Part shown: positions 3,764-62,683 of the stretch, piece by piece
Layout: each line of letters starts with the position of its first letter
Numbering within the stretch: the first letter of the stretch is position 1
From: Agarophyton chilense
Lineage: Eukaryota > Rhodophyta > Florideophyceae > Gracilariales > Gracilariaceae
Direction of reading: 5' to 3'
Length of the DNA stretch: 64,000 nucleotides
Assembly: GCA_030374765.1 (NCBI GenBank)
Contig: JARGXX010000006.1
Span: 496,001-560,000 of the forward strand
Translations under genes and position numbers: made by a program
The notes under the pieces: model-generated
The model's database searches: none
Told to the model about the DNA's origin: nothing
What the model saw: the letters and a program-made list of their open reading frames with translations, nothing else

Positions 3764-3888
3764 AGTGAAGGTTTGGCAGTCTCTTACCCTGCATTTGGTT
3801 CCGTGCTCTGCATCCTCTTTGGTTGCACGTAGTGCTGCCACTGAAACAGAAAGCATCGAATCCCAACCCGAACACCTGCAATAACGAC

Positions 3889-5919
3889 ATGCCTCACAAG
3901 TTCAGTTCCAAAGACCGTGGACGTGGCAAGGGAAAGGGTAGAGTCACAGCGGATGCTATGGAGGATGTTCAGATAGAACCACGTACCTTCACACCAGACA
4001 TGAAGGATGCCACACAATCGACGATAAGCTGCTGGAACAATGTGTCAAACACCCTCAACTTCGGCGACACTTCTGATTACGACCACGCACAGAGGGGATT
4101 ACTTAACACACCTTCTGACTTAATCATTTTTCAAGATGGCCAACCTGTCTGGGATATGAAGTCGTATGCCGATTTCATCAAGCAAAATACGCAGTCTCCG
4201 CAGACTGTCAATCCGAGCCTTTGGCGCATGTCTCAGCTGAATATGTTCTACGGCTTGTTCGAGGTGACGGAAAATATTTATCAGGTCAGGGGCTACGATC
4301 TTAGCAACATTTCTTTCGTTAAAGGGTCAACTGGTTGGATTGTCTTCGATCCTCTCATCTCTGCTGAATGCTCCCAGGCTGCTCTTTCGTTGATTAATCA
4401 AGAAGTATACGAGAAAAATGGGGACCCTCCACAGTCTGTTTCGGCTGTGATCTACAGCCACAGCCACATCGATCATTTCGGCGGTGTGAAAGGTGTTCTT
4501 GGCCCAAATGACAAAGATAACATCCCAATTTATGCATCCAAAGGCTTTACCGAGCATGCCGTTTCGGAGAATGTCATTGCTGGCAACGCAATGAGCCGCC
4601 GAGCCATATTCATGTATGGTTCTCTGTTGGAGAAATCTGCAAAGGGATCTGTTTGTGCTGGGCTCGGAATGACCACATCCTCAGGAAGCACTGGGCTCCT
4701 TAAACCAACAAAAATAATTTCCGATGACTACGAAACCATTGATGTTGACGGAGTCAAAATGGAGTTCCAATTCACTCCAGGCACCGAGGCTCCCACTGAA
4801 ATGAACACGTGGTTTGTAGACTGGAATGTGTTGTGGATGGCTGAGAATACTACGCATACCATGCACAATTTACTCACTCTTCGAGGTGCCCAAGTTCGAG
4901 ATGCATTGATGTGGTCTGAGTATCTTACCAAAACCATCAACCGCTACGGCGCAACCGCGACAGTCAAATTCCAGTCTCATCATTGGCCTCTTTGGGGGAA
5001 TGATGAGATCATGAGTTACTTGAAGAAACAGCGAGCCATATATCAATATACTCATGATCAATCCGTTCGTCTGATGAACAAGGGCTACGTTGGGACAGAA
5101 ATCGCGAGCGCGATGCAGTTGCCGAAATCTCTCGAACTAGAATGGAGCACCCGTGGCTATTATGGAACGTTGAGCCACAACAGCCATGCCGTTTACCAGC
5201 GTTACATGGGATGGTACTCTGGGAACCCATCTGATCTCAATAAACTCCCTCAAGAAGAGGCAGGTGCGAAGTATGTTTCCTATATGGGCACGGAAGAGAA
5301 CGTCATCGAAATGGCAACAGTCGATTTTGATCAAGGAAATTACCGCTGGGTTGCGGAGGTGATGCGGCACGTGGTTTTCAAAAACCCCGACAACGATCAG
5401 GCTAGATATTTGCTCGCTGACACATACGAACAAATGGGATATCAGGCGGAGTCGGGTGCATGGCGAGCATGTTACCTTCAAGGAGCACACGAACTCAGGA
5501 ACCCGAAACCCACAAGTGGGCTCTCTACAATCTCCGAAGACGTGGTAAGAAACATGGAACCTTCAATGTTGTTCACCTACTGGGGTGTTCATTTGAACCC
5601 AGCTGCTGCGCAAGGTATGAATCTCAACGTCGTGATCAACTTAACAGATACAGACCTCGGTGATGACATTAGCACCACATATACGCTTACAGTGGAAGAT
5701 TGTGTGCTTATTCAAAGCCCTGAAGCCGTGGGCAGACCCGATGCAACGATCACCACTCCAATGTCAAAGTTGTACGATCTCTTTTTGACTCAAGACGTGG
5801 ACGCTTTTCTGAACGACCCTCTCGTAGAAATTTCTGATGATGAGAAGCAGTATGTGGTGGATTTAGTTTCTGTGTTTGATACTAAAGATGATATGTGGTT
5901 CAATATCATTGAACCGTAA
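3889..5919 (+). CDS. Type III (metallo-beta-lactamase-fold) alkylsulfatase
   Basis: Predicted 676-residue enzyme of the SdsA1/BDS1 family. These are zinc hydrolases that cleave primary alkyl sulfates, such as dodecyl sulfate, to an alcohol and sulfate. The zinc-site motif HSHIDH is at residues 191-196. E300 in TEAPTEMN, E319 in AENTTHTMHN and the histidines of HHWPLWG (364-365) follow at nearly the same spacing as the metal ligands of SdsA1. The middle and C-terminal parts look like the family's dimerisation and SCP2-like domains. Length is close to the bacterial enzyme (about 660). The first ATG of the frame is at 3889, after a TATA box. The N-terminus is basic (RGRGKGKGR) with no signal peptide, so a cytosolic location is likely. 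The frame is intact and ends in TAA with no intron. The family is mostly bacterial and fungal, so acquisition by transfer is plausible but untested. Confidence 0.93.
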   Translation: MPHKFSSKDRGRGKGKGRVTADAMEDVQIEPRTFTPDMKDATQSTISCWNNVSNTLNFGDTSDYDHAQRGLLNTPSDLIIFQDGQPVWDMKSYADFIKQNTQSPQTVNPSLWRMSQLNMFYGLFEVTENIYQVRGYDLSNISFVKGSTGWIVFDPLISAECSQAALSLINQEVYEKNGDPPQSVSAVIYSHSHIDHFGGVKGVLGPNDKDNIPIYASKGFTEHAVSENVIAGNAMSRRAIFMYGSLLEKSAKGSVCAGLGMTTSSGSTGLLKPTKIISDDYETIDVDGVKMEFQFTPGTEAPTEMNTWFVDWNVLWMAENTTHTMHNLLTLRGAQVRDALMWSEYLTKTINRYGATATVKFQSHHWPLWGNDEIMSYLKKQRAIYQYTHDQSVRLMNKGYVGTEIASAMQLPKSLELEWSTRGYYGTLSHNSHAVYQRYMGWYSGNPSDLNKLPQEEAGAKYVSYMGTEENVIEMATVDFDQGNYRWVAEVMRHVVFKNPDNDQARYLLADTYEQMGYQAESGAWRACYLQGAHELRNPKPTSGLSTISEDVVRNMEPSMLFTYWGVHLNPAAAQGMNLNVVINLTDTDLGDDISTTYTLTVEDCVLIQSPEAVGRPDATITTPMSKLYDLFLTQDVDAFLNDPLVEISDDEKQYVVDLVSVFDTKDDMWFNIIEP

Positions 5920-23208: not shown

Positions 23209-26200
23209 AGACGCCCGAGGCGCTCCAGCTTCGCTCCCCAGCTGTGACTATCCTTTCAAGGAGAACGGCTGACACCGACGTTAACTCGGGATACTTTAGT
23301 GTCCTCCGTCGCCCGTGGATACGGTCCCGTAATCTCCGTATTCCGGATCGAGTTATGGTAATGGCCAAGCGGAATTATAAGGTATTCGCCGACTTCGGCC
23401 TGTCCAACCAGTTTATGGTTCGTCAAATATCTGTCCTGGATACAGGAGCCGCTCCTAACTTAATTCATGTTGAATTGTTACCCCCGCTGCTCCGGGTTCA
23501 AGTTCGTACCGGTCCACGTTTGGATATCGCCGATGCGAACAACAACCCGCTACGGACACTGGGTACAATTTCCCTCATGGTGAGGTTAGGCTCCTATCTC
23601 GTTCAACTGGAGTTTATTGTATGCAAGTCACTTGCAGCACCAGTCATACTGGGTTGTGACTTTTGCGACCGCTTCGTGGAAGCCATCCGTCCTCGGAATA
23701 GAACTGTGGAACGCGAAGACGGGTCTACGATCCCAATCGTTCGTAAACCCTTACAGGGAGCAGCGCGAACACGCGTTCCTCTCCCTGTCGCGCAGGAATC
23801 TGTGAAGAAGGACCCGGTGTCTACACGGGTAAAGGTTGCGAAGTCAGTGGCTATCCCGCCAGAAACCCAGGTTTGGGTCACAGTTGTTACCAAGCAAATT
23901 GGTGTGCATGTGGTACAACCGAACACGTCTCTGTATACGCGGCGTCAACTCGCCCTTGCGAATGGGGTTGTCTCCGTGGAACCGGATAAACCTTTCAAGG
24001 TTTTGGTAGCCAACTTTGGAAAGACAACGCAGCATTTGGTCAAACACCAGATCCTGGGTTCTGTTCTTCCACACCCGCATGCGGTCGTACCTATAAAGAT
24101 CTCTATCGCAGAGTTCCTTGGTGTGGCGGACCCTAAGGAGGGGGAGGACACTGCCGAAATCGCGGAAGACGGTGTGCATACGACTGCAGCTCCACACGCT
24201 GAACACTTTACACCTCAGGAGGTTACGGCCCCTATCACAAGAGCAGACCAGACGGATCCTGTTCAGGAATTGGAGAAATGGGATCTCAACCATGTACCCG
24301 CATCTCATCGGGAGAAGCTGAGGCACATGCTTCGTGAATTTACCCCCATGTGGGATGGTTCTCTTGGAACTATTGGGATTACAGAACACCGCATCGAGTT
24401 GTTACCGAACACTCGGCCTATTGCCCAACACCCTTACAGGGCTGGACCGAAAGCTCGGGAAGAGGAGAAATCTCAGGTGGAGAAGATGCTTAAAGCGGGC
24501 GTAATTGAACCTGCCCAGTCCGCTTGGGCCTCACCAGTGGTGTTAGTTCCGAAACCGGATGGATCGTGGCGTTTCTGAATCGATTACAGTCGCCTGAACG
24601 AGGTAACCATTAAGGATGTGTACCCGATCCCTCGGATGGACGAATACATCGACTCCCTTGGGAGCGCTACTGTTTTCTATACCCTCGACGCCAATTCGGG
24701 CTACTGGCAAGTCCCTATTAGGGAGGAAGATCGAGACAAAACGGCGTTCGTGTGTCATCAAGGACTTTTCCGATTCCGGAGGATGCCTTTTGGGTTGACA
24801 AATGCCCCCGCAACGTTTCAACGGGCGATAGACATTCTGTTGGCTCCCTTCAAGTGGAGGACGTGTCTAGTGTATTTAGACGACATTATTGTCTTCTCCA
24901 ACAACCTGGATGATCACCTCGAACACGTCAGGGACGTAATGAAGATACTCCGCGACGCGGGAATCACCTTGAAACTCAAGAATTGCGAGTTTTTCACCGA
25001 TTCGGTTAAATATCTGGGTCATATCATCCGTCCCGGACAGCTTTCAATGGATGAAGTACGAGTGAAATCCTTGAAGGAAGCAAAACACCCGAAAACTCAA
25101 ACGGAGTTGCGATCCTTCTTAGGTCTGTGTAACGTGTATCGCCGATTCGTCCCGAACTTTGCGGATATTGCCACCCCCCTCAACAGGCTCCTGACGAAGG
25201 GACAACCAGTTGAACTGGAACCTTTTGGCGACGCGGAAGCGTCTGCCTTCACGGCACTGGTGAATGGCGTAACATCACCGCCAATCTTGGCTCTACCCAA
25301 TCCTGGGCTCCCTTACGAAGTGGACACCGATGCTAGTGCAAACCAAGTAGGGTTTGCACTGTTCCAATCCTCTGAGGATGGTGAACGTCACCCTATTGGG
25401 TACTGGTCACGTTCCCTGAATGTCCATGAAAGGAACTACTCGGTCTCCGAGAAAGAATGTTTAGCCGTTGTGTGGGCCTTAGCTACACTTCTCCCCTATC
25501 TGATGGGTACTCGTTTCAAAGTCCATACGGACCACGCATGCTTGCGTTGGCTCCTGGAGATCTCCGAACCCTCGGGCCGCCTTATGCGCTGGCGTCTCCG
25601 ACTGTCGGAATTCGACTTTGAGATCCTGTACAAGAAAGGGAAGCTGAACACTCAGGCTGATGCACTATCCCGCTTGGGAACCACAGCGGAAACGGAACCC
25701 TACGAGGACGATGACATCCCATGCTTTATGGTATCGGACCTCGAGGGAGGAGCTCAACCGCTGATGGATGATGTTTGTGACGATATACTCGTCAATGAGA
25801 GTCTGGATTCGCCGACCGGCTCTTTTATACCTATCTCTCCAGAGGAGATGATACGCGAGCAACAGATCGACCCATTCTGTACACGGATTCGGGCTCGCCT
25901 CAACGGAGGATTTCAGTTACCTTTCGAGGACGACGATCAGGGTTACCTAATCAGGACCGTTGGACCTCGCCCGAGGATAGTGGTGCCGCACACCCTACAA
26001 CAGAGGGTATTACACCTCACTCACTATGTGAAGGTTGGCGCCCACCCCGGGGGAAGAAAACTGTACCTCACGTTGAGAAGGGACTTTTACTGGCCGGCAA
26101 TGGCATTCGATTGTTACGCCGTCAGACGGGCCTGCGCCAATTGCGCCAAGAATGACGTCAAACTTCGGAAGCACTCTAAGAAGTTGACGCTGTTCCCGGC

Positions 26201-27695
26201 ACGGGCTCCACTCGAATTCGTGGCCATAGACATCCTAGGGGAGTTTATCAGGACGCCCCGAGGTCATCGGTATATTCTTGTCATTTCTGACAGATTCTCT
26301 AAGCTAACGAGAACTGTGCCGCTGAAGCGGATCACCGCCGCTACCGTCGCGCAAGCGTTCGTGACCCATTGAGTGTTCGTATATGGACCGCCGGTGCAGT
26401 TGTTATCCGACAACGGAGGGCAATTCGCATCAAAGTTCTTTCAGGATGTATGTCGAATCCTTGATGTAAGGAATTTATTTGTTACTACGTATCACCCTAA
26501 CGGGAATGGCCAGGTTGAGAGGTTTAACCGCACGATACTCAACGCTTTGAGATCGTATGTTGCGGATCACCCCAAAAATTGGGACTTGTACACAGACGCT
26601 ATCACGTATGCATACAACACCCAGGTACATCGGGTTACATCGTTATCCCCATTCGAACTGGTACTGTCGAGGACACCGCCGCCGGTCGCCATCGAGTCTC
26701 AACCGACGCTGTCGACGTACCCGTCACCGGGATTGTACCGAAAAGCCTGGAAGGAGTGGCTTACGAAGATGGTGCCGATAGCCCGAAAAGCAATGGACAA
26801 AGCTCAACGCGCCTACAAGAAGGACTTTGACAATCGGGTTCGCAAACCTCTACCTCAGGTGGAGCCCGACGACTTCGTCTTCCTTCGAAAGGAATACTAC
26901 AATCCTGAAAAGGAACGTAGGCACAAGCTTTCGCCAATTGTGGACGGACCCTATCGGGTGGTTTCTGTAGACCCGGACACGGTGGTATTGGATATCGCTA
27001 ACCGCCACGAACGGATCTCCAGGGACCGCATCACACGAGCGCCCAACCCAAATGTGGAAGTGGTGTCGGCACCAACGCCCTCCACAGGGGATGATTCAAC
27101 GGAAGTTAACCCGTCAGGCGGAGATTCGAACACCCGCCCCGTTATACTTCCGCACCCGGAACGTGGTTTAACCGACCTACCGGAAACTTCGGATACTCCC
27201 GAACCTGGGCCCGCTCCCTCAAGGGCCCAGTCAACGAACTCTTACAGAGTTACTCCCCCACCGGAGGTAATCAAGCCTCCTGGCTCTCCGCCTAAGGAGG
27301 GGGAAAAGGACTTAGTTCCTTCGCAGGACGATGTTTCGGCGTCAGCCAGTGGCCCTAGCAGGGAATCTAGTTCTCAAAATGAGACGGCGAGCCCGACCGA
27401 GCCGGCGACAGAGAAGTCACAACCCCAGCGTATGGGTAGCGACATCACCGCCGACCCAGCCGAGCACGACGTCAGAAAAGATGACGAAAAACCGCCTAGG
27501 GAGAGTCGTGTGGAGAACTCCGCACCCGGAACGCCTACAGAGCCGACGATCACCCGCCGCCGCGGACGAGACACTGAGGTGTCGCACACTCAAACCCCGC
27601 TTTCTCGGGAACGAGCTGTGTCAGCGGACCCGCACGGGGAAGATCTCGACGACGAGGTTGACCAAATTTGGCTCTCCGTTATGGAATGGGAATAG
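23163..27695 (+). pseudogene. pol: Ty3/gypsy Pol polyprotein with two in-frame TGA codons
   Basis: One frame, -1 relative to gag, encodes about 1500 residues. Order: protease (LDTGAAP, DTGA at 23439-23450); reverse transcriptase, with MPFGLTNAPATFQ and YLDD at 24873-24884; RNase H (DTDASANQVG, EKECLAVVWAL, HTDHACLRWL, QADALSRL); integrase with an H..H..C..C zinc part, then D at 26229, D at 26409 and E at 26517 (D-35-E spacing); then a GPYR module and a long Ser/Pro/Glu-rich tail. TGA codons at 24576-24578 (within WRF-IDY) and 26370-26372 (before VFVYGPP) interrupt the frame. The related element at 45-53 kb has an Arg codon (CGT) at the first position, and most relatives have Trp at the second. 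Both are therefore probably nonsense mutations, so I call it a pseudogene. Expression would need a -1 frameshift; the start given is where the frame clearly leaves gag. Confidence 0.9.
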
Positions 27696-52971: not shown

Positions 52972-53313
52972 TATAGGTCAGGCGCTCGCAATGGACCTCA
53001 TCGGAGGAGGGCCACCTACGGCGAAGCTGGAAAGAAAAAGAAGTCAACACCAGAGGAGAAGAGAGGGAATTGAAGAGAGTGGAGAACGTCGGGACGAAGT
53101 GGGACTTGTGGAGGAAGTAGATGACCGGTAGCAAATTGGGCGCAGCGAGTGAAGGAAGCGTTTCAGCCCGTCTTGCGCATAGCTTGTGAGTACTTGGAGA
53201 ATACATATAAAGCCCGATTTGATATCACACTCAAACGAGTGTGATAACCGAGGATTGCGCAAATGTCAGCACTACTACAGTACGCGTCAATAATATAGGA
53301 CTGGCGAGCACTA
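52972..53313. other. Junction between the old Ty3 and copia elements
   Basis: Probably the leader or truncated LTR of the old Ty3 element. It contains the 10-bp hairpin at 53223-53246 and a TATAAAG-like site near 53206. No gene is supported. Confidence 0.35.
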
Positions 53314-53497
53314 TGGAAAGCAGTCGTACGCAAAGCGAGAGGTCTGTCGGTATAATGTCTAGTATGCGCTTGTAACGCGAGGTGGAACCGAAGAAGATGC
53401 AACGGGCAAAAAGTGTCCCCCCCTGCTTCTATGTCCCCAGTGTTTCGAGGTGGAGCAGGGGTGAGGTTTAGTATTCAGCGCCTGCGGCATTGTGCCA
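53314..53497 (-). repeat. Left (3') LTR of the copia element
   Basis: On the plus strand it begins TGGAAAGCAGTCGTACG and ends ATTGTGCCA. It aligns without gaps to 60050-60233. Confidence 0.68.
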
Positions 53498-53728
53498 GAT
53501 GGAAGCGGCCATTTTCCTCACAGGCCAGTTATCTCAACAAATCTCCTCTGCGTGCCCTCAGTGTTTTGCGAGTACCCCTCTTTTTCCTTTCGAGAACTAC
53601 GCACGTGCCAGAACGCCAAATTTGCGACGACACGGCTTCCATCTATAAGTGTAAAACCTTGACGCGGGACTCGACGTGTCTCCTCTCGCCGGACAGCGTG
53701 GACGACTTCTGCTTAAGTTAATCCATCG

Positions 53729-54871
53729 GTGGATCGCACTAAACAGACGGCTTGCAAATCTGTTGGCGGAAAAACCCCACGGCGCCAGCTCGCGGGCAAA
53801 GCCGCAAGAATCACAAGCGATACATATTTTGACCAATATCTTAACAAGAATATTGTCAAGCTTCTCTGTTCCAATCCACAGCGCGTCCTGAGAAAAATAT
53901 ACGCAATTACATTCGAAGGCAGCAACAACCTCGTGCGATTTAGCGAAAACGAAGCCGCTATTTTGCTCGGGGGCAGGATAGCTCATTTCATACGGAAGTT
54001 TCGTGGCACTCACTTTGGAGGGTTGATGCTGTTCCGATTGGGTCTTACAGAGGGTTTGGCTGACGACGGAGATCCCAATACCCGAATTGAGTACAACGAT
54101 TGGATGATCGAGAAGGTATGGTTGTCGATAGGAGGTCGTGGTGAGATTTAGGACCAATTCTATGCTCTGAAGCATGGAACTAACGTAGTTTGCCGCATAG
54201 ATATGAGTACTTTCCAAATCGAGTACAGTCAGTCAATCGAAGGTGGTGCATCGAGGAGTAGGGTAACGTATGATGGCGAAAGAGCAGAAAGAACCATTCA
54301 TTGGGGAGGCAACGACCGGTATGAAGCGATCAAGAGCATTATGGCTACTTGAAGTGCAAAGCCAGGTCATAGGTTCAACGTGCTCCAACCCGAAGCGCGA
54401 ATGCCATTGTATGGCGTCCGAAGTTTCCATCTCCCTCATACGTCCGTGCAGTCTCGCGACGAGACGTTTCTGTGCCTTGACGCTTCTTTAAGCAATGCAT
54501 TAGCTATCATTATTAGATCAGAGAAGGCTGCAGAGTGTTTGGCGTATCTCGTCGGTTGTGTTATGAAGAACGCAGACGATAATGAGATATACTTGAACGC
54601 CATTGCAGGTCTTGATTTTGGTGATATTATTGAGATTGAATACTGGAACCGGAAAGCGCGAAGGGAGGTACGACGAAATTTCTGTGAACTCAAGGATATG
54701 CAGAGGTTTGTTTGGGAAAAGAATCGTGTTCTTATTAGCCTCGATTACCTTCGCGATGAGACTGGACACCAAGAAGAAAACTTCGATCCGGATAACTTCC
54801 GCGATAGCGGAAAGGTCTTCCTTGCAAGTCTCTTCAGGCAATTGACGGATACCTACATGCAGTTTCCATAG
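53729..54871 (+). pseudogene. ORF beginning with a histone H3 N-terminal tail, antisense within the copia element
   Basis: A single plus frame of 381 codons. It opens with GTG at 53729 and DRTKQTACKSVGGKTPRRQ, then LAGKAAR, which aligns with residues 1-26 of histone H3. K4, K9, S10, K14, R17, K23 and R26 are kept; R8 is Cys and K18 is Arg. No histone-fold core follows. The remainder includes NKNIVKLLCSNPQRVLRKIY, GGRIAHFIRKFRGTHFGG, YDGERAERTIHWGGNDRYEA, CLAYLVGCVMKNADDNEIYL, IAGLDFGDIIEIEYWNRKAR and KVFLASLFRQLTDTYMQFP, and belongs to no family I know. TAG at 54149-54151 and TGA at 54350-54352 interrupt it, and the expected ATG has become GTG, so this copy is dead. It is antisense to copia gag-pol and lies between RNase H and the left LTR. 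It is either a captured H3 tail fused to an element gene or a mimic of it. Confidence 0.72.
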
Positions 54872-54971
54872 ATAGGGAGGGGAACATGATTATTGATCCA
54901 GTGGAAAAGTATCACATGGATCTCACGCAAGTTGCTCTCGAGTCCTGTGTTGGATCAGACCGTTCTTTCAG

Positions 54972-57900
54972 TCAGTCATATTGCGAACTGTGGCGTAGTG
55001 CGCTTGCTCCAAGAGAGAAAGGATGGGAAACGTGCTCGCCGCGGGAAGAAACGGCGTCACCAAGAAGGTTCCTCAAACTGAGTTGAAAGCTTGGCCATAT
55101 TAGACCCAAAGCTTTAGGGTTCCATGCCCCACGATGGTGGCCCATTGTAGATATGATATCTTTACTTAGCATACTTTGAACCATATCTTGGTTCAATTCA
55201 GTAAATGAATGATGATTGCCCTTTGTCATCGCGTCGGATAAGTTCAGACTTCCTGCTATCCAACGCATGAAGGATATGTCTCCAGCTTCGGAGTAGTGAT
55301 GGAGGCGGGACACGGTGGGGCGTAATCAGCAGTCTCAGCATTCATGGAGGGTAGTAGTATTTGACTATAAACCAAATGAGTCGACGTAAAGGACGAGCGA
55401 ACCGAAATCCGATATAAGAACTTTCATGCATTCCCTAAGTAGTATGGATCTGTCTGCGGATTCTGCTGCCGCAAGAATTTCGGCATCGATTGAAATAAAG
55501 GTTATGCGTCCTTGCTTCGCGCTATTTCATTCGACGATGTGGTACGAAACGTTCGCACCTTGGAAGAAGGCGATGCCACTGATATAGCCAGTTTGACCGT
55601 AGGATGACTTTCCAATGCTGGCGTCAGAGAATATCACTATGTGGCAAGCGTTCATGTTATCAGATACCATCGGGGATCTCGGATCCATGTGCTTCAGGAC
55701 CGGACGGAGCTTAAGGACGAGCTTGAGGATCCGGTTTGGCTGCAAAAGGTGCCTAAGGCGCATGTCTGGGACCAGCTGCTGCATGAAGGTAGCAGCGTAC
55801 GCAGCTCTAGGCAGCACACCATGGCCGAGGTAGTTGAGTTTTCCAGCAAGAGACTGGATTTCTCGGACTTCTTGCTTGGTACATAGATCCTCGAACTGCT
55901 TCCACCTATCCATTGAAATCGGAATGGGGGCGAGCTTTATTATAAACTCTTCCATGGAGATCTTGATCCTGAAATCTTTATATTGCCGAATCCGAAGGTG
56001 GCTGAAGATAATCTCGTTCTTGAAGAGTGCTTTTCCAGCCTTGAAGCGAGCTGAGAGAGAATTAGAGAATGTGGAAAACTCACTCTTTGATCCGGCAAGG
56101 AGAAGATCTTCCACCAATTTGACCAGGAGTAGAGATATACGTCCATGGTGTTCCGACAATATAAACATCTGTGGCATACCACGGACACTATGGAATCCGT
56201 ACTCACACTGCTTTTGCTTGAAGCACAGCTGCCATAGGCGACCGGACTCTACGAGGCCATACGCAGGCTTGAGTAGCCTCCATACTTCGTCTACGAACTG
56301 TGTCCATCTCATTGGAGGCCGCATGTATATATCTCCTTTGGGGTCGCCTGATTGAAAATACGCTCTAGAGATGTCAATGCTTTTAAGAGTGAGGTGTAGT
56401 AAAGTTGCAAGAGAAAGCAGAAGTCTGATGCAGGTGAATTGAGCCGTAGAGGAGTCAGATTGAATGTTATCCTTTTGGTAATCCCAGTTCCCATTGGGTA
56501 CCTGACGGAACTTGAGCTTGAGCTTACCACTCTCTCCATCTAACTTCATCATGAAGAAGTGATGGGAGGAGATAATATTTGCATTTCGCGGCAGTCCTTT
56601 GATGGGGATCGGCTTGTATGCCTCGGCTCCAGAGTAGTTTCTCTTCTCTGCTACGATGGCCTTTTCAGTGGCCTTTTCGATTATCCATTGCGAGTCAAAC
56701 TGAAGTTTAGCTTCTGTGGCTGGTTGGTCTCCAATGACATTCCTGATCTGCTCGAAAATTCTTTTCTCCAAAGACAATAGATTTTCGCCTTTGGTGTGGA
56801 ACCTAAGCGAGGTCTCACCAAAATCTTTGCAGAGTTGAGGGTTCCCGACATCCTTTGAGGGTGCGTTAACAGCCGTTTTGTCTTCCTTTGACGCAAAGAA
56901 TGGTGAAGAGAACGGATGAAAAGACCGCAAGTTTTGTTCATCTGATATGTTGGTGTCGAAACTTAAAGGGTCTTGTATGTTCTGCACAAGAAAGTCTGTG
57001 ACTTCTTTATCTAGGACAAGCAGATGAGATGAACATTCGGCTTCAATCCTTTCTTCAAGGACTGGGACCGGTGTTCTGGGGCGTTAGTGTCCGGGAAGGA
57101 CGAGTATCCAAGCGCATGTTTGTCCAGTTCCTGTAGAACGGATGAACGCGGGACTAACCTTATGTCCTCGTAGGTGTTCTGATGCTTCGGTTCCTGGGGA
57201 TTTTTACCGGGAGAGACCCACATTTTATATTCAGTAGTAATGACCACAAATGCCTTGTACCAAGCACCATGTTTTCCAACCCTTTTAAACACATATACCG
57301 GAGTGCTTGGTGCCAGAAGGTGTTGTGATAAAGAATGCGATGGATTGGTACGAATGAAGGTGTTTACGACACGCCTGGAAACGTGTTCGTGGTAGAAAGC
57401 AAGGAGCTTCTCTGGAAGCATCTGCTTGAGGAACCCAGAAACAGAAGAAGTGTAGCAGTGAACAAGCTCGAAGCTGCTGACTGAAATATTACCATACAGC
57501 ACATTCTTCAGGAATGTGGCTTTTGAGAGGATCTCAAAGTCCGTGCGATACACTTGACGAGTTTCTTTCAGATGGGGTACGTCGAGAAGAATCGTTTGGA
57601 CAAATGTACGGATGGTCTTGTTTCTCGATTCGACTCTTCCAATCTTGTTGTGGCGTTGAGCAGGGCGCGGATCGAATGATATTTGATTCTCGACACAGAA
57701 TCGCTGAATGGATTCGTTATTGAACTCTGGGTCTCCTGATAATTTTGATGGAGACCCAAAGACATCAAACCAATGAACGACAATCATGCTAGCGGTATCA
57801 GTCATATAGCTTGAAGTCATCAAGACAGTCACGGAGAGACCGGTTGATACACCCTTAACATGCAGAATGGGGAGCATTCCAGACTCGCGAATGAATAGGA

Positions 57901-58813
57901 AATCAATTTGAAGGTGCTCCTTGACCTCACCCAGTATTCTCTTGAGTGATATATTTCGAGCATGTAATGGGCGCCAAGACCTTTTGCATGAAGTAATAGA
58001 ATTGTAGGCCTGTTAGAGCTCCCCAGGGAGTGTTCGATTTAGAATTCCGCCTCGACTGCAAAGCTTTTTCATATCCTTTGGGGAGAGATGGGACTGCCAG
58101 TGTAGCTTTTTCGCGAAGCCGCCGGCATGGGTTTGATCCATGCCGTTCTTGCAAGATAGTTTGGCGATCAGATGAAGATTCCTAGAGAGAAAGGAATAAT
58201 GAAAAGAGAAGAAGAATTTGAACGACGTTATTATCGAAGGAACGACGAATAAGTGTGTTCGGCGGTCATTGTCTTCACCTAGGACGTACGCTGAGAGAAC
58301 TTCGTCATCCCGAGATATTCCGAACGAAACGGGCACTACGAGCGTGTTGTCCGAACCCATGAGGTCGTAACAGGAAACTATGTCGTTTCCCAGTAGCAGA
58401 GGACCGTCGCCTTCCGTAATGTAAGACATAATGTCTTCTTTCACATCGTTGAGTTCTTTGATCTTCAACCTCCAAGTTCATAATACCAGTTTGGGATTTG
58501 AACATTTTGAAAAAAAGCCGTGATAAAAGAGGTCACAGTCGAGGTGCTCAACGTGAAATTGGATGCTTATTGCGATTGATACTGCAGCGGCTGACTCGAC
58601 TCCTCCCACACTACTAAAACCACCAATTTCAATGATGGGGATAGGATCTCTCGTTCCACTGACCAAATCATAAGGCGCCCCAATCCACGACTTTAGGCAT
58701 GGTTGCGCTTCGATGGGGCGGCGCCTGCTGTAAAATCCGCGTAAGATCCACGGTGTCGTTCTCTGGAGGCATCTTTTCTGGGATGTCTTCCTCCACGACG
58801 AGAAACTGTGCAC
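54972..58813 (-). pseudogene. pol: Copia Pol: protease, integrase, reverse transcriptase, RNase H
   Basis: Minus-strand blocks in copia order. Protease: 58813-58478, where GAPYDLVSGT sits in the usual DTGAPYDL place with the catalytic Asp lost. Pre-integrase region: 58468-58013. Integrase: 57877-57011 (VVHWFDVFGSPSKLSGDPEF, HNKIGRVESRNKTIRTF). Reverse transcriptase: 56987-55527 (LTLKSIDISRAYFQSGDPKG, LLKPAYGLVESGRLW, and LLVKLVEDLLLAGS where YVDD is expected). RNase H: 55526-54972 (NSAKQGRITFISIDAEILAA). TGA at 55527-55529 falls where relatives usually have Trp. The active-site YVDD reads LVED, so the enzyme is inactive. Confidence 0.82.
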
Positions 58814-58923
58814 CTACCGTTTGAATCATTGCGTTGGCGTTCGAACTTCCTCTTATTTATCAGAAATGAGGAACTTTGGCACAAGTCATTTCCAGCCATG
58901 TGCTCGGTATCACCACAATCAAA

Positions 58924-60044
58924 TCAGAAGGACGACTTTCCACCTTTCCTGGCCTTAACATCGGTGCGTTTCCTCTTCGCATTGCCCGGTTTGGAAGACA
59001 CGGTTGATGAATTTTCATCCTTCCTACTTCCCAAGCGAGTTATTACGCTCTGGTGGGATTGAAAAATTGCATATAAGGCAGTTTGGACTTTCTGACCGAC
59101 GATATTTTCAATGTCCTCCCTCGTATAGTGAGCAGCAGAGGTCGAAGGGGCAAAAGGGAGATTCCGTATGACTGTAACGGCGTTATACAGGTTTCGACGA
59201 CATCTGCGGGAAGGTTGAAGGAGCTCGTTGGTGGAAAGAGTTGGGCTGGTCTTTGAGCGAGTGTTTGTAACATGTCCCTCCAACTCAACGACCGCTTCAT
59301 TGATCTTTCTCTCCGTTAACAAAAGCTTTTCTTTCGTCAAATTATGATTATCGCGCCTCGAAATCTTAAGGTGAGGATTCGATAGCATTTCACGGAGGTT
59401 GGTTACGGACTCCTGAAACTTCACAAGATTCACGTGTTGCTGGGTATCCCAAGTGTCACTTCCAATTCTCATGCAAGCTTTGGTGAGAAAGATGAGTTGT
59501 AGTTTGGCATTGGTCAACGTCTCCTCACTCAAAGATGAATTGTTGAGTGGAGTTATTTCGAGAACTTCTCCAACCTGAGATGAGAATAAGAGTCCACTAT
59601 GCATGAGATTATCGGCAGGCGAGCTGCATAAAAGTGATACGAAGCTAGCTAGAGGCTCATCCTTATGTCGATGGCAGTTTGTACCACGATTGAAGGAAGA
59701 AATCAAACGAGAAAAAAAGCAAGTGGAGGGTCGACTGCGACAAGTTCAACGATTTTGCACACCGGTTTCACTTGGTCTTCCTGCTTGTAATCAACAATTC
59801 TTTTTTTCTGGGCTTCGTCGACCACGGATTTCTGAGCACTACGCAAAGCTATGTCAAACAGCTGTAGACCTAGAGTTGCAAAGATTGTTTGGTAACGACG
59901 ATCGGTGTCCTTCTTGGCAGCAGTAGAAATAGTATCTCCTCATCGAAAAACGTTGCCGCGCCATTCTTGAAGATCCTTGGTCGGATCAAACTTTGGCGGG
60001 TCTCTCGGATTGAAATACATAACAGCTCCTGACCCTGGGCCCAT
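58924..60044 (-). pseudogene. gag: Copia Gag, broken
   Basis: Starts at the ATG at 60044 with MGPGSGAVMYFNPRDPPKFD. After TGA at 59940-59942 it continues DTISTAAKKDTDRRYQTIFA, TLGLQLFDIALRSAQKSVVD. After another frame change the block 59706-58924 follows (HKDEPLASFVSLLCSSPADN, and a basic Lys/Arg-rich end KRKRTDVKARKGGKSSF). The layout and the WRG/RRW motif match the gag at 63096 (+). There is no zinc knuckle; the basic tail may bind RNA instead. Confidence 0.65.
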
Positions 60045-60049
60045 AAATA

Positions 60050-60233
60050 TGGTAAGCAGTCGTACGCAGAGCGAGGGAGCTGTCGGTCTAATGTCTAGTA
60101 TGTGCTTGTAACGCGCCGTGGAACCGAGGAAGATGGAACGGGCACAAGGTGTCCCTCCTTGCTCCTCTGTCTCCAGTGTCTCGAGATGGACCAAGGGTGA
60201 GGTTTAGTATGCAGCGCCCGCGGCATTATGCCA
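60050..60233 (-). repeat. Right (5') LTR of the copia element
   Basis: Partner of 53314-53497, abutting the Gag start. On the plus strand it begins TGGTAAGCAGTCGTACG and ends ATTATGCCA. Confidence 0.68.
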
Positions 60234-60419
60234 GGTGGCGATCCTGTATTGCACAAGCCCACCATCAATGTAACGAGGGTGAGTACAAAAGAAACATTGT
60301 CTAAACATTATATAAAAAATTACCACCATGCCAACCGCGTCTGAAAAGGCTTCCAAATTCACAAGTTATGTATAAGACAGTCTCCAGAGCCAATCAAAAA
60401 TATAGGACTACTTCTTTGT

Positions 60420-60713: not shown

Positions 60714-62683
60714 CAGCGTTCCCCCGCTATGAGCATTAACTTTTGGGAGAAGCCCATTTTATACGCATAGCGAAGTTATGGCGCTAACGAGAGAGATTTT
60801 CATTGTGTATGAAAAAGGTCAGCAATGGTCGGCTGCTTCAGACGGGCCTTTTTCTCGAGTCTCAGCTCCCTCTGGCAAACTAAAAAGACCTTTTTGAATT
60901 TGTTGTTCATTCTACCAAGGCGATCCAAGACAGCCTTTGCCACTGCGAGACCATTTAACTGCTCGTCAATACTGTACCCACTCTCCTCCTCCTCACATTC
61001 AGTTTCAACTGCGTCCACAACTTCCACACCAGCAATTAACAGACCTTGATTTTCAATAGAAACCTCCTCCGTAATAATGTCCTCTTCCTCTGGGTTCAAT
61101 ATATTTTCTATACCCATCCTACTGTGCTAAAAACTATGTTCCGTAACATCTCTCAAAAGTTGAGAACGGAGTTCATTTTGGATACTGTTCTGAAAAGTAC
61201 TGCTTCGAACATCACCCTCTTCAGAGCAATGATCTAAGCAGTTCTGTATGGTAGAAGCCGGTAGAACATCCCACTCCTCTCGAACCCAACGCATTTCTGT
61301 TAATATGTCGACGTTGTATATTGATTTCCGTCCAGCATCGATATTGTCAAACACTCTGAACAGTAATCGACGGCGGTATTTTGCTTTCAATGAAGCGATA
61401 ATCCCTGTATCAAGCGGCTGTACGCGGCTAGTTGTGTTCAGAGAAAGGAACTTAATGTACATATTCCGCAGTTCAGAAACCACATCTGCACCCCAACTTC
61501 TGCACCCCAACTTCTGCACGCCCATGCGCTGAGCAGTTATCGAGAAACAACAGAATTTTAAGCCCTTAAGTCCTTCAAATATACACATCCAGTCGTTTCA
61601 GCCAAGCGAAGACAGAACTTGCGTCATCTAAGCCTTGCTGTTGGAACGGGGCTCCAACGCGTGACCGACAACCATAAGACGGTACTACTCCGTGCCGTCC
61701 TCATTACAATAGGCCAGAAATGTGATCCTCGTTTTATCCTTCTTGAAGCCTGCCGTCGGTTTGCTTGAAAGCCACCATCCGGGCGGCTGTCTGTAAAAGA
61801 GTCCAAACTCATCCGCATTCCAAACATCGGATGGGCTGTACGTGGAGATCTTTTACCGTATACCCGGAAGGGCAGCAGCCAAGCCGTTGTTACTTGCACT
61901 TAAAGCTCTCCCGTGTATACGGCGAAGCCGAACGTTGTATCGCTTCTGGAAACGGTTTATCCAACCGTGAGAGAACTTTAAAGACAGACGTTCATTTGAC
62001 GGGAGATGTAAGTTCGCCTCCGTTTGTAGTCTCTCGGCGTAATTCCGAACAATCGGTCCATTTAGTTGTACTCCATGAGCGTTTTTATCACAGAGCCAAG
62101 TAAACAGTGCTGCTTCAAGGCGTGGAGCGGCAGGGGTACGATGCTCCTTAAAAAGAAGTGCACATCGTGTTTCGGAATGCTTGCAGTGCGGCGGTGGAGG
62201 ACAAAATGCGTGAAATTGTTGCTTGGCTTGGAGTTTCTTTAAGTCGGAATTGTTGGTTTTCCCAGGCAGCAAGGGCTTTCTGTGAGAATTTATGACCGAG
62301 ATCGACACGCCTTTTGTGTTCGGCTACGATTTGTTATCGTTGTCGAATGGTCAGCGCTCGCATCATTTTGGGACCATGCCAGTGGAAAGGGGGCTGGGAA
62401 TGGCGAAACTAGAAGCAAAGCTTAGCAAGTGGATATAAGTTAAATCCTTGCAGAGACGATTTGAAATATCAAATGAGAAAACTATGCATTGATGTCAGGG
62501 TCAACTAGCGAAATTTTTAATGAAAACACAGAGTTACTTTCAAAAGCGGTATGCATGTATGCATCATGCATAATGGCGGGGACTCCGGCTCCGAATCGAC
62601 GTCTCTCTCCCCGGAGCCGAGATCTGTATGCGCATATCCGAGTTATGCACATAACGAGACATGACCATAACGGGGAAACACTG
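60714..62683 (-). mobile_element. pogo/Tigger DNA transposon with TIRs
   Basis: A 1970-bp element. The left end CAGCGTTCCCCCGCTATG (60714) and the inverse of the right end CAGTGTTTCCCCGTTATG (62683) form terminal inverted repeats matching 18 of 23 bases. TA dinucleotides at 60712-60713 and 62684-62685 are the expected target duplication. It contains one decayed transposase gene on the minus strand. Confidence 0.85.
60800..62308 (-). pseudogene. pogo/Tigger transposase, broken
   Basis: The N-terminal CENP-B/Tc5-type DNA-binding region is encoded at 62308-61853 (RLEAALFTWLCDKNAHGVQL, NGPIVRNYAERLQTEANLHL, LKFSHGWINRFQKRYNVRLR). The DDE domain follows: NADEFGLFYRQPPGWW; then LSLNTTSRVQPLDTGIIASL and KAKYRRRLLF (about 61440-61360). 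An acidic C-terminus (EEEDIITEEVSIENQ, VETECEEEESG) ends at 60800 with QPTIADLF, which resembles a PCNA-binding PIP box as described for pogo transposase. The frame is broken by a TAG near 61690, frame changes and a duplicated CTTCTGCACCCCAA motif near 61500. Inactive as read. Confidence 0.82.

Follow-up and report, generated by a model that had tools for sequence, protein, structure and literature searches.

Antisense additional ORFs lying between pol and the 3' LTR (aORF-3R) have been described from the LTR retrotransposons of flowering plants, with gene23 of maize Grande, rice RIRE2 and Silene Retand as the examples (PMC7264820); that account gives no determined function for them, describes no clear similarity to database proteins and places some of them in the nucleus. 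A second line of work concerns viral proteins that imitate the histone tail, such as influenza NS1 with the motif ARSK, SARS-CoV-2 ORF8 with ARKS and the HDV antigen (PMC10208167). For red algae, GalEa-like Copia elements are on record (PMC3587641). The locus that we describe here, from the red alga Agarophyton chilense, belongs to the first of these kinds and resembles the second: it is an antisense accessory ORF of a known kind, and what is new is that this one is a candidate histone mimic. The whole stretch of DNA analysed, 64,000 nucleotides long, is called the window below.

The first 26 residues of the window ORF are identical to those of host H3 (loci L021 and L022) at 20 positions, K4, K9, S10, K14 and K23 among them, and a phmmer search of the first 140 residues against the PDB chains gave H3 tails and H3 proteins as top matches (best E 1.9e-5), which bears out the sequence-only reading that the ORF starts with an H3 tail carrying these sites. 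The likeness stops at residue 26; the same reading had seen no histone core behind the tail, and the Pfam scan of the ORF pieces agrees, with neither PF00125 nor any other domain following. The lack of a core rules out a host H3 or CENH3 gene. Chance resemblance is ruled out by the PDB matches and by the genome-wide matches to a degenerate MARTKQTARK pattern, 46 with at most three mismatches versus none for the reversed control. The 46 comprise 33 loci of the ORF family, four host H3 or H3-like genes, seven places in another repeat, the lone tail at C128:816952 and the single position C25:1006133. The window copy is dead, as had been claimed from its altered start codon and two in-frame stops; the end proposed for it, 54871, does not hold, since a frame shift close to the C-terminus carries the conserved C-terminal part on to the stop ending at 55081.

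Two further sequences resemble the tail. At C25:1006133-1006162 (plus strand), outside every locus of the H3-tail ORF family, there is a MARTKQTARK-like stretch with two mismatches, and at C128:816886-816981 (minus strand; L067) there is a lone tail, MGRTKQTARKSTG..., with a more H3-like T11, which joins an unrelated repeat after approximately residue 33.

Features of the Copia-type element and its antisense ORF in the window
Feature	Position	Strand	Evidence
Old, broken copy of a Copia-type LTR retrotransposon	53312..60255	-	LTR pair, RVT_2, target duplication
3' LTR, recognisable part	53312..53502	-	86% identity with 60048-60238
Antisense additional ORF: H3-like tail, body and basic C-terminus; broken copy	53729..55081	+	comparison of copies; purifying selection in frame
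Histone H3 tail mimic, start codon and 26 residues	53729..53809	+	20/26 identical to host H3; PDB H3 matches
Cys of the C-L-x-A-S-L-S-N-A-L motif, candidate catalytic residue	54473..54475	+	conserved in copies; putative function
His...Asp motif (LHA...IIDP), candidate catalytic residues	54856..54897	+	conserved in copies; putative function
Basic stretch KRARRGKKRR, candidate nuclear localisation signal	55028..55057	+	putative NLS
pol, Copia-type reverse transcriptase region	55530..57083	-	PF07727 RVT_2, E 2.7e-15
Integrase C-terminal region, Tudor/SH3-like signature	57083..57340	-	PF18336; FMRP Tudor chains
pol segment upstream of RT, putative integrase	57341..58477	-	collinear with pol of other copies
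gag-side ORF	58927..59745	-	no recognised domain
5' LTR	60048..60255	-	direct repeat pairing with the 3' LTR

The H3-tail ORF occupies the interval from the 3' LTR to pol, in convergent orientation to pol, and starts about 230 bases inside the recognisable edge of the LTR; that it lies within the element and antisense to it follows from the flanking LTRs and the minus-strand RVT_2 match. The type of reverse transcriptase and the LTRs with their target duplication identify the host element as a Copia (Ty1/copia) LTR retrotransposon. RVT_2 (PF07727) scores above the cut-off in the window and in two further copies (L035 and L046), an rve match upstream of the RT was seen in two of the nine ORFs scanned (L048 and L033) at 18.9 and 17.3 bits, under the cut-off of 32.6, and the domain scan of the gag-side ORF found no recognised domain. 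The element is flanked by AGCAC and AGCCC, an imperfect 5-bp target duplication. LTR pairs were found for the window element and for six of the 20 further copies fetched, no second LTR being detected within the approximately 10 kb taken for each of the other 14; the K2P divergence of the seven pairs ranges from 0.054 to 0.152, the window having the highest value. By eye, the 5-bp duplications of these seven are exact in two (L035 and L046), agree at four of the five bases in four and at three in one.

Elsewhere in the window, a second LTR element of Gypsy type lies at 24579-27692 (plus strand), with matches to RVT_1, RNase H, an integrase zinc-binding domain and a Ty3-like integrase. Remnants of a Tc5/pogo-like DNA transposon (DDE_1 and HTH_Tnp_Tc5) adjoin the Copia element at 61130-62323 (minus strand), and a long ORF at 3769-5916 (plus strand), with the alkyl sulfatase domains PF14863 and PF14864 and Lactamase_B, is probably a host gene.

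Searching the genome (79.76 Mb in 135 contigs) with the first 140 residues gave 79 matches, merged by hand into approximately 53 loci that include near-identical duplicates (on C14, twice on C82, on C106 and, judged by the tail, also on C81); the C-terminal piece of the ORF gave 52. In 14 of the 20 further copies, the ORF is followed by pieces of pol in the other orientation, and in the fetched stretch of the other six (L030, L031, L036, L037, L039 and L040) there is no pol match. Seen from the side of pol, 33 loci, counting the window, reach at least 51% identity, and 30 of them have a convergent H3-tail ORF within 16 kb; none of the 16 loci with at most 45% does, in a comparison covering 49 of the 88 pol matches after fragments of listed copies and most low-identity rows were dropped. 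Three of the 30 have their ORF 8-12 kb away and are likely split copies or chance neighbours; two others, within 3 kb, were paired through the C-terminal piece only. Intact relatives had been thought possible elsewhere in the genome, and none of the 21 copies read over the whole ORF is fully intact. Protein-database searches with pieces of the H3-tail ORF returned no match, transcript-derived or other.

As an observation on the assembly, one contig (C39) holds eight nearly full-length genes of phycobilisome proteins, two of them repeated near the contig end, and its partial phycobilisome matches repeat 185,684 bases further on; the contig appears to be a circular plastid genome whose sequence runs on past the origin, which points to a red algal host.

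The copies appear to be mosaics. In the window (53399-57098) and seven others, pol is approximately 0.86-0.93 alike per 100 bases, compared with 0.78-0.85 for the initial 900 bases of the antisense ORF and 0.73-0.75 for the 3' LTR side. The same eight copies give pS 0.134 for pol, with dN/dS 0.65, and pS 0.365 for the ORF, a contrast suggesting that the ORF and the 3' region are older than pol and have been reshuffled against it through recombination.

The tail region was read in 36 of the 53 loci, and its start is recognisable in 34 of them, with the same body behind it; the idea of a mobile-element protein carrying an H3 tail, joined in these copies to one partner, thus holds well beyond the window, and a fusion restricted to one locus, formed by a single insertion of an H3 fragment, is ruled out by this recurrence. 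By eye, the tail DNA of two copies (L014 and L017) can still be recognised despite a deletion or shift, one copy (L010) retains the second half only and one (L018) has lost the tail. Thirty-two copies align codon by codon, and the H3 residue is kept at most sites in the majority of them (of 32: A1 30, R2 26, T3 26, K4 29, Q5 27, T6 24, A7 21, R8 28, K9 28, S10 26, G12 28, G13 16, K14 23, A15 10, P16 24, R17 17, Q19 27, L20 25, A21 25, K23 28, A24 23, A25 27 and R26 21). The family departs from H3 at T11, which is V in 20 copies or D in nine, at K18 (R in 22), at T22 (G in 23) and at the position of K27 (I in 22 or V in seven).

Against the host H3 protein, the tails are identical at up to 21 of 26 residues (mean 17.5), while synonymous differences from the host H3 genes are saturated, with mean pS of 0.74 and 0.80. 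The two host genes themselves stand at pS 0.70 over this stretch with zero protein change. With silent sites saturated and the host genes so far apart, the age of the capture is unreadable from the DNA, and the dating by host H3 genes that had been proposed is impossible.

Raw pairwise comparison of 15 copies gives a dN/dS of 0.48 for the tail (1.45 and 0.77 in the shifted frames) and 0.29 for codons 27-140 of the body (1.24 and 0.85), values that mix selection during the life of the element with decay after insertion. We therefore set apart two subfamilies of six and four copies, recognised by the residues that immediately precede the start, and subtracted the within-group from the between-group divergence; the remaining five of the 15 copies, the window among them, are unassigned and were left out. 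For the tail, this gives a net dN/dS of 0.10 (95% bootstrap interval 0 to 0.43), and 994 of the 999 usable replicates have dN below dS; the body has a net ratio of 0.07 (0.03-0.12), with dN below dS in 998 of 998. In the shifted frames it is net dN that is the larger: net dN and dS of the tail are 0.160 versus -0.017 and 0.135 versus 0.067, and the net ratios of the body are 2.78 and 1.38. Within the groups, dN and dS of the tail are near parity (0.076/0.104 and 0.065/0.052), as expected of dead copies, and dN of the body is approximately 0.6 of dS. Over the 15 copies, tail and body are equally well conserved, with 0.851 in the tail versus 0.834 in the body. Tail variants shared by at least three copies are 31 nonsynonymous to 17 synonymous and singletons 46 to 16, a weak shift; with raw tallies so weak and the raw dN/dS of the tail at 0.48, the case rests on the comparison between subfamilies, which covers 10 copies and 25 codons. 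On that basis, purifying selection acts on the tail and keeps it at the modified sites of H3.

A more distant relative on contig C11 (L049; pol 44% identical) carries the same body antisense beside pol, recognised by the profile in two plus frames (E 3e-7 and 3e-5). Its ORF begins at the body, without the tail, and corresponds to a 271-residue protein (P0001; 245 of 245 residues identical) that has a transcript-style record name in the public eukaryote protein set and was the sole match in the protein search with this relative. P0001 is collinear with the body of two copies, as none of 500 shuffles reached the score; against their tails there is no alignment signal (87 and 293 of 500 shuffles reach the score), and against the N-terminal half of the body alone the signal is weak (81 and 3 of 500). 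The body piece of this relative has 45 matches in the genome, several on the opposite strand beside pol relatives of 42-45% identity, and no MARTKQTARK match with up to three mismatches lies beside relatives of that class. In this wider Copia group, some copies with body relatives have open frames of 380-493 codons. The body thus does occur without the tail, as the sequence-only reading had considered, but it does so in sister families, and the fusion is not confined to one locus. Since sister families have the body, without the tail in the one relative whose N-terminus was read, the most likely course is that a single clade gained the tail on an antisense ORF that already existed; alternatively, the tail may have been lost in the relatives.

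We propose, with rather better than an even chance of being right, that the ORF encodes a nuclear antisense accessory protein mimicking residues 1-26 of H3 to engage the readers or modifiers of the H3 tail, a binding role suggested by the conserved residues. The ancestral protein would have had approximately 400 residues, with a conserved body bearing Cys, His and Asp and a basic C-terminus, much as sister Copia families still retain. In one clade, an N-terminal extension copying H3 residues 1-26, either captured or converged, would have been added and then maintained by selection. An antisense transcript arising from within or beside the 3' LTR would be translated, and, as the initiator methionine is removed before Ala1 as a general rule, its cleavage would expose a free, H3-like Ala1-Arg2-Thr3-Lys4. 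The protein would enter the nucleus through its basic C-terminus, and there the factors that read or write K4 and the Q5-S10 segment around K9 could bind or modify the tail like that of H3. PHD, ADD and WDR5 domains and HP1-type chromodomains recognise the free Ala1, R2, K4 and the Q5-S10 segment. The outcome would be either that silencing factors are titrated off the chromatin of the element or that opening factors are recruited to it.

Because K4, R8, K9, S10 and K23 are kept but K27 is lost, the K4 and K9 machinery makes a better target than Polycomb. Of 1935 chromodomain candidates, 150 were scored and all 150 exceeded the cut-off, so reader domains of the H3 tail are common in this genome; many lie in ORFs of over 1000 codons, suggesting that many belong to elements of chromovirus type, and the set probably includes rival retroelements. 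A role as 'decoy or bait', as had been suggested for the protein, is plausible, and the selection seen on the tail would agree with it. That the element plays the histone itself specifically against host silencing we hold to have slightly better than an even chance.

The partner of the tail might lie closer at hand. The C-terminal region of the element's own integrase matches Tudor_FRX1 (PF18336) in all seven copies compared (the window, L035, L046, L047, L048, L034 and L033; best E 1.8e-5), and its best PDB matches are FMRP Tudor structures (E 0.005); if this Tudor/SH3-like module binds the tail, the accessory protein would mask or redirect the integrase and so control where or when integration occurs. 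The PF18336 scores available, 16.8 to 22.9 bits, all fall under the cut-off of 25.9, however, and as integrase C-terminal domains are generally SH3-like anyway, the likeness may be one of fold only. We consider this reading unlikely. In its own right, the Tudor-like end of this Copia integrase, with its sub-threshold resemblance to the FMRP/FXR Tudors, is a possible methyl-lysine reader.

It is similarly doubtful that the tail exists to serve the body, as the pseudosubstrate or substrate-recognition arm of a Cys-His-Asp peptidase-like enzyme that, for example, clips or modifies H3. Where a copy truly aligns at the motif in question, the residue is mostly kept (Cys by 16 of 17 copies, His by 12 of 14, Asp by 14 of 16), all three are present in the distant tail-less relative, and their order would presumably suit a papain-, OTU- or NlpC-like peptidase. 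On the other hand, searches of the body against Pfam, NCBIfam and PDB gave no match of weight and no recognised family, and the PDB search with the tail-less relative returned weak, unrelated matches only, so that the peptidase-like core is only suggested by the motifs; sister families, moreover, own the body, the single one read having it without the tail.

The tail may instead be a basic arm for localisation or nucleic-acid binding, descended from an H3 gene and engaging no reader. H3 tails are basic, and a protein of the element would need nuclear entry. Yet residues that are not basic are conserved as well, namely A1, T3, Q5, S10, G12, Q19 and L20, and the protein already has a separate basic stretch at its C-terminus, which is at least partly visible in 16 of 21 copies (the C-terminal piece is matched in 17, the match in L045 ending short of the basic stretch, and has no match in L031, L039, L040 and L044). 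We regard such an arm as quite improbable.

That the tail is a chance-captured H3 fragment, carried along without function, has a precedent in this genome and could draw on the weakly shifted raw tallies. A separate repeat family of eight loci, 86-90% alike (C75:728868-729400, which is L066, C75:632530, C115:191021, C77:408929, C113:928861, C7:762132, C7:650919 and C31:409086), contains a decayed first exon of H3 with the start of an intron; over 139 bases, it shares 81% identity with the host H3 gene. Confusion with this repeat is ruled out, as the Copia tail has neither its exon-intron makeup nor its closeness to host H3. A functionless passenger is made very improbable by the net dN/dS of the tail and by its retention in nearly all copies read while silent sites have become saturated relative to host H3. 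Least credible of all is that the element codes here on the opposite strand, in the sense of pol, with an incidental likeness to H3: one minus-strand frame does have a low dN/dS too (0.37 versus 0.27 in eight copies) and is fairly open (47 stops versus 33 in 21 copies), but it is a reflection of the plus frame's wobble positions, the above-threshold profile matches in the distant relative are in plus frames only, and the plus frame of the best copies matches H3 at 20-21 of 26 residues.

The H3-like tail gives one of the antisense ORFs on the 3' LTR side an unmistakable and selected clue. If our preferred reading is true, that the accessory protein presents this tail to the readers or modifiers of H3, a transposon has evolved a histone decoy, and histone mimicry widens from the short motifs of viruses to an entire tail, in an element resident in the genome; we know of no earlier instance in which a transposable element would act as the histone itself to counter silencing by its host. 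The titles and abstract openings listed from the open-licence literature include no H3 tail or histone mimic borne by a transposon.

Bracovirus H4 and giant-virus histones possess the histone fold, and chromovirus chromodomains read H3 tails. The Copia ORF differs from the former in having the tail only, without a core, and from the latter in presenting the tail that they read. The likeness in each case is that histone sequence has entered a mobile or viral genome, as with the viral histone H4 of bracoviruses (PMC10208167) and the histones of giant viruses (PMC10208167, PMC9145170), or that a retroelement makes use of the histone-tail code, as with the integrase chromodomains of chromoviruses (PMC3605345). 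LTR retrotransposons of bdelloid rotifers have likewise gained extra protein modules, among them ORFs of envelope-like, esterase and exonuclease type; the main text of that report nowhere uses the word 'histone' (PMC5408684). The viral mimics share with the H3-tail ORF a parasite protein that carries H3-tail residues at modified sites, but theirs are motifs of approximately four residues, whereas the retrotransposon ORF reproduces approximately 26 from a free N-terminus (PMC10208167). Closest of all are the aORF-3R, as the available account portrays them: they have in common with the H3-tail ORF the position between pol and the 3' LTR, the antisense orientation, the retention in most copies and a suggested nuclear role, and they differ in their hosts, flowering plants rather than a red alga with its Copia element, and in that only the algal ORF has an N-terminus that is plainly the tail of histone H3 (PMC7264820).
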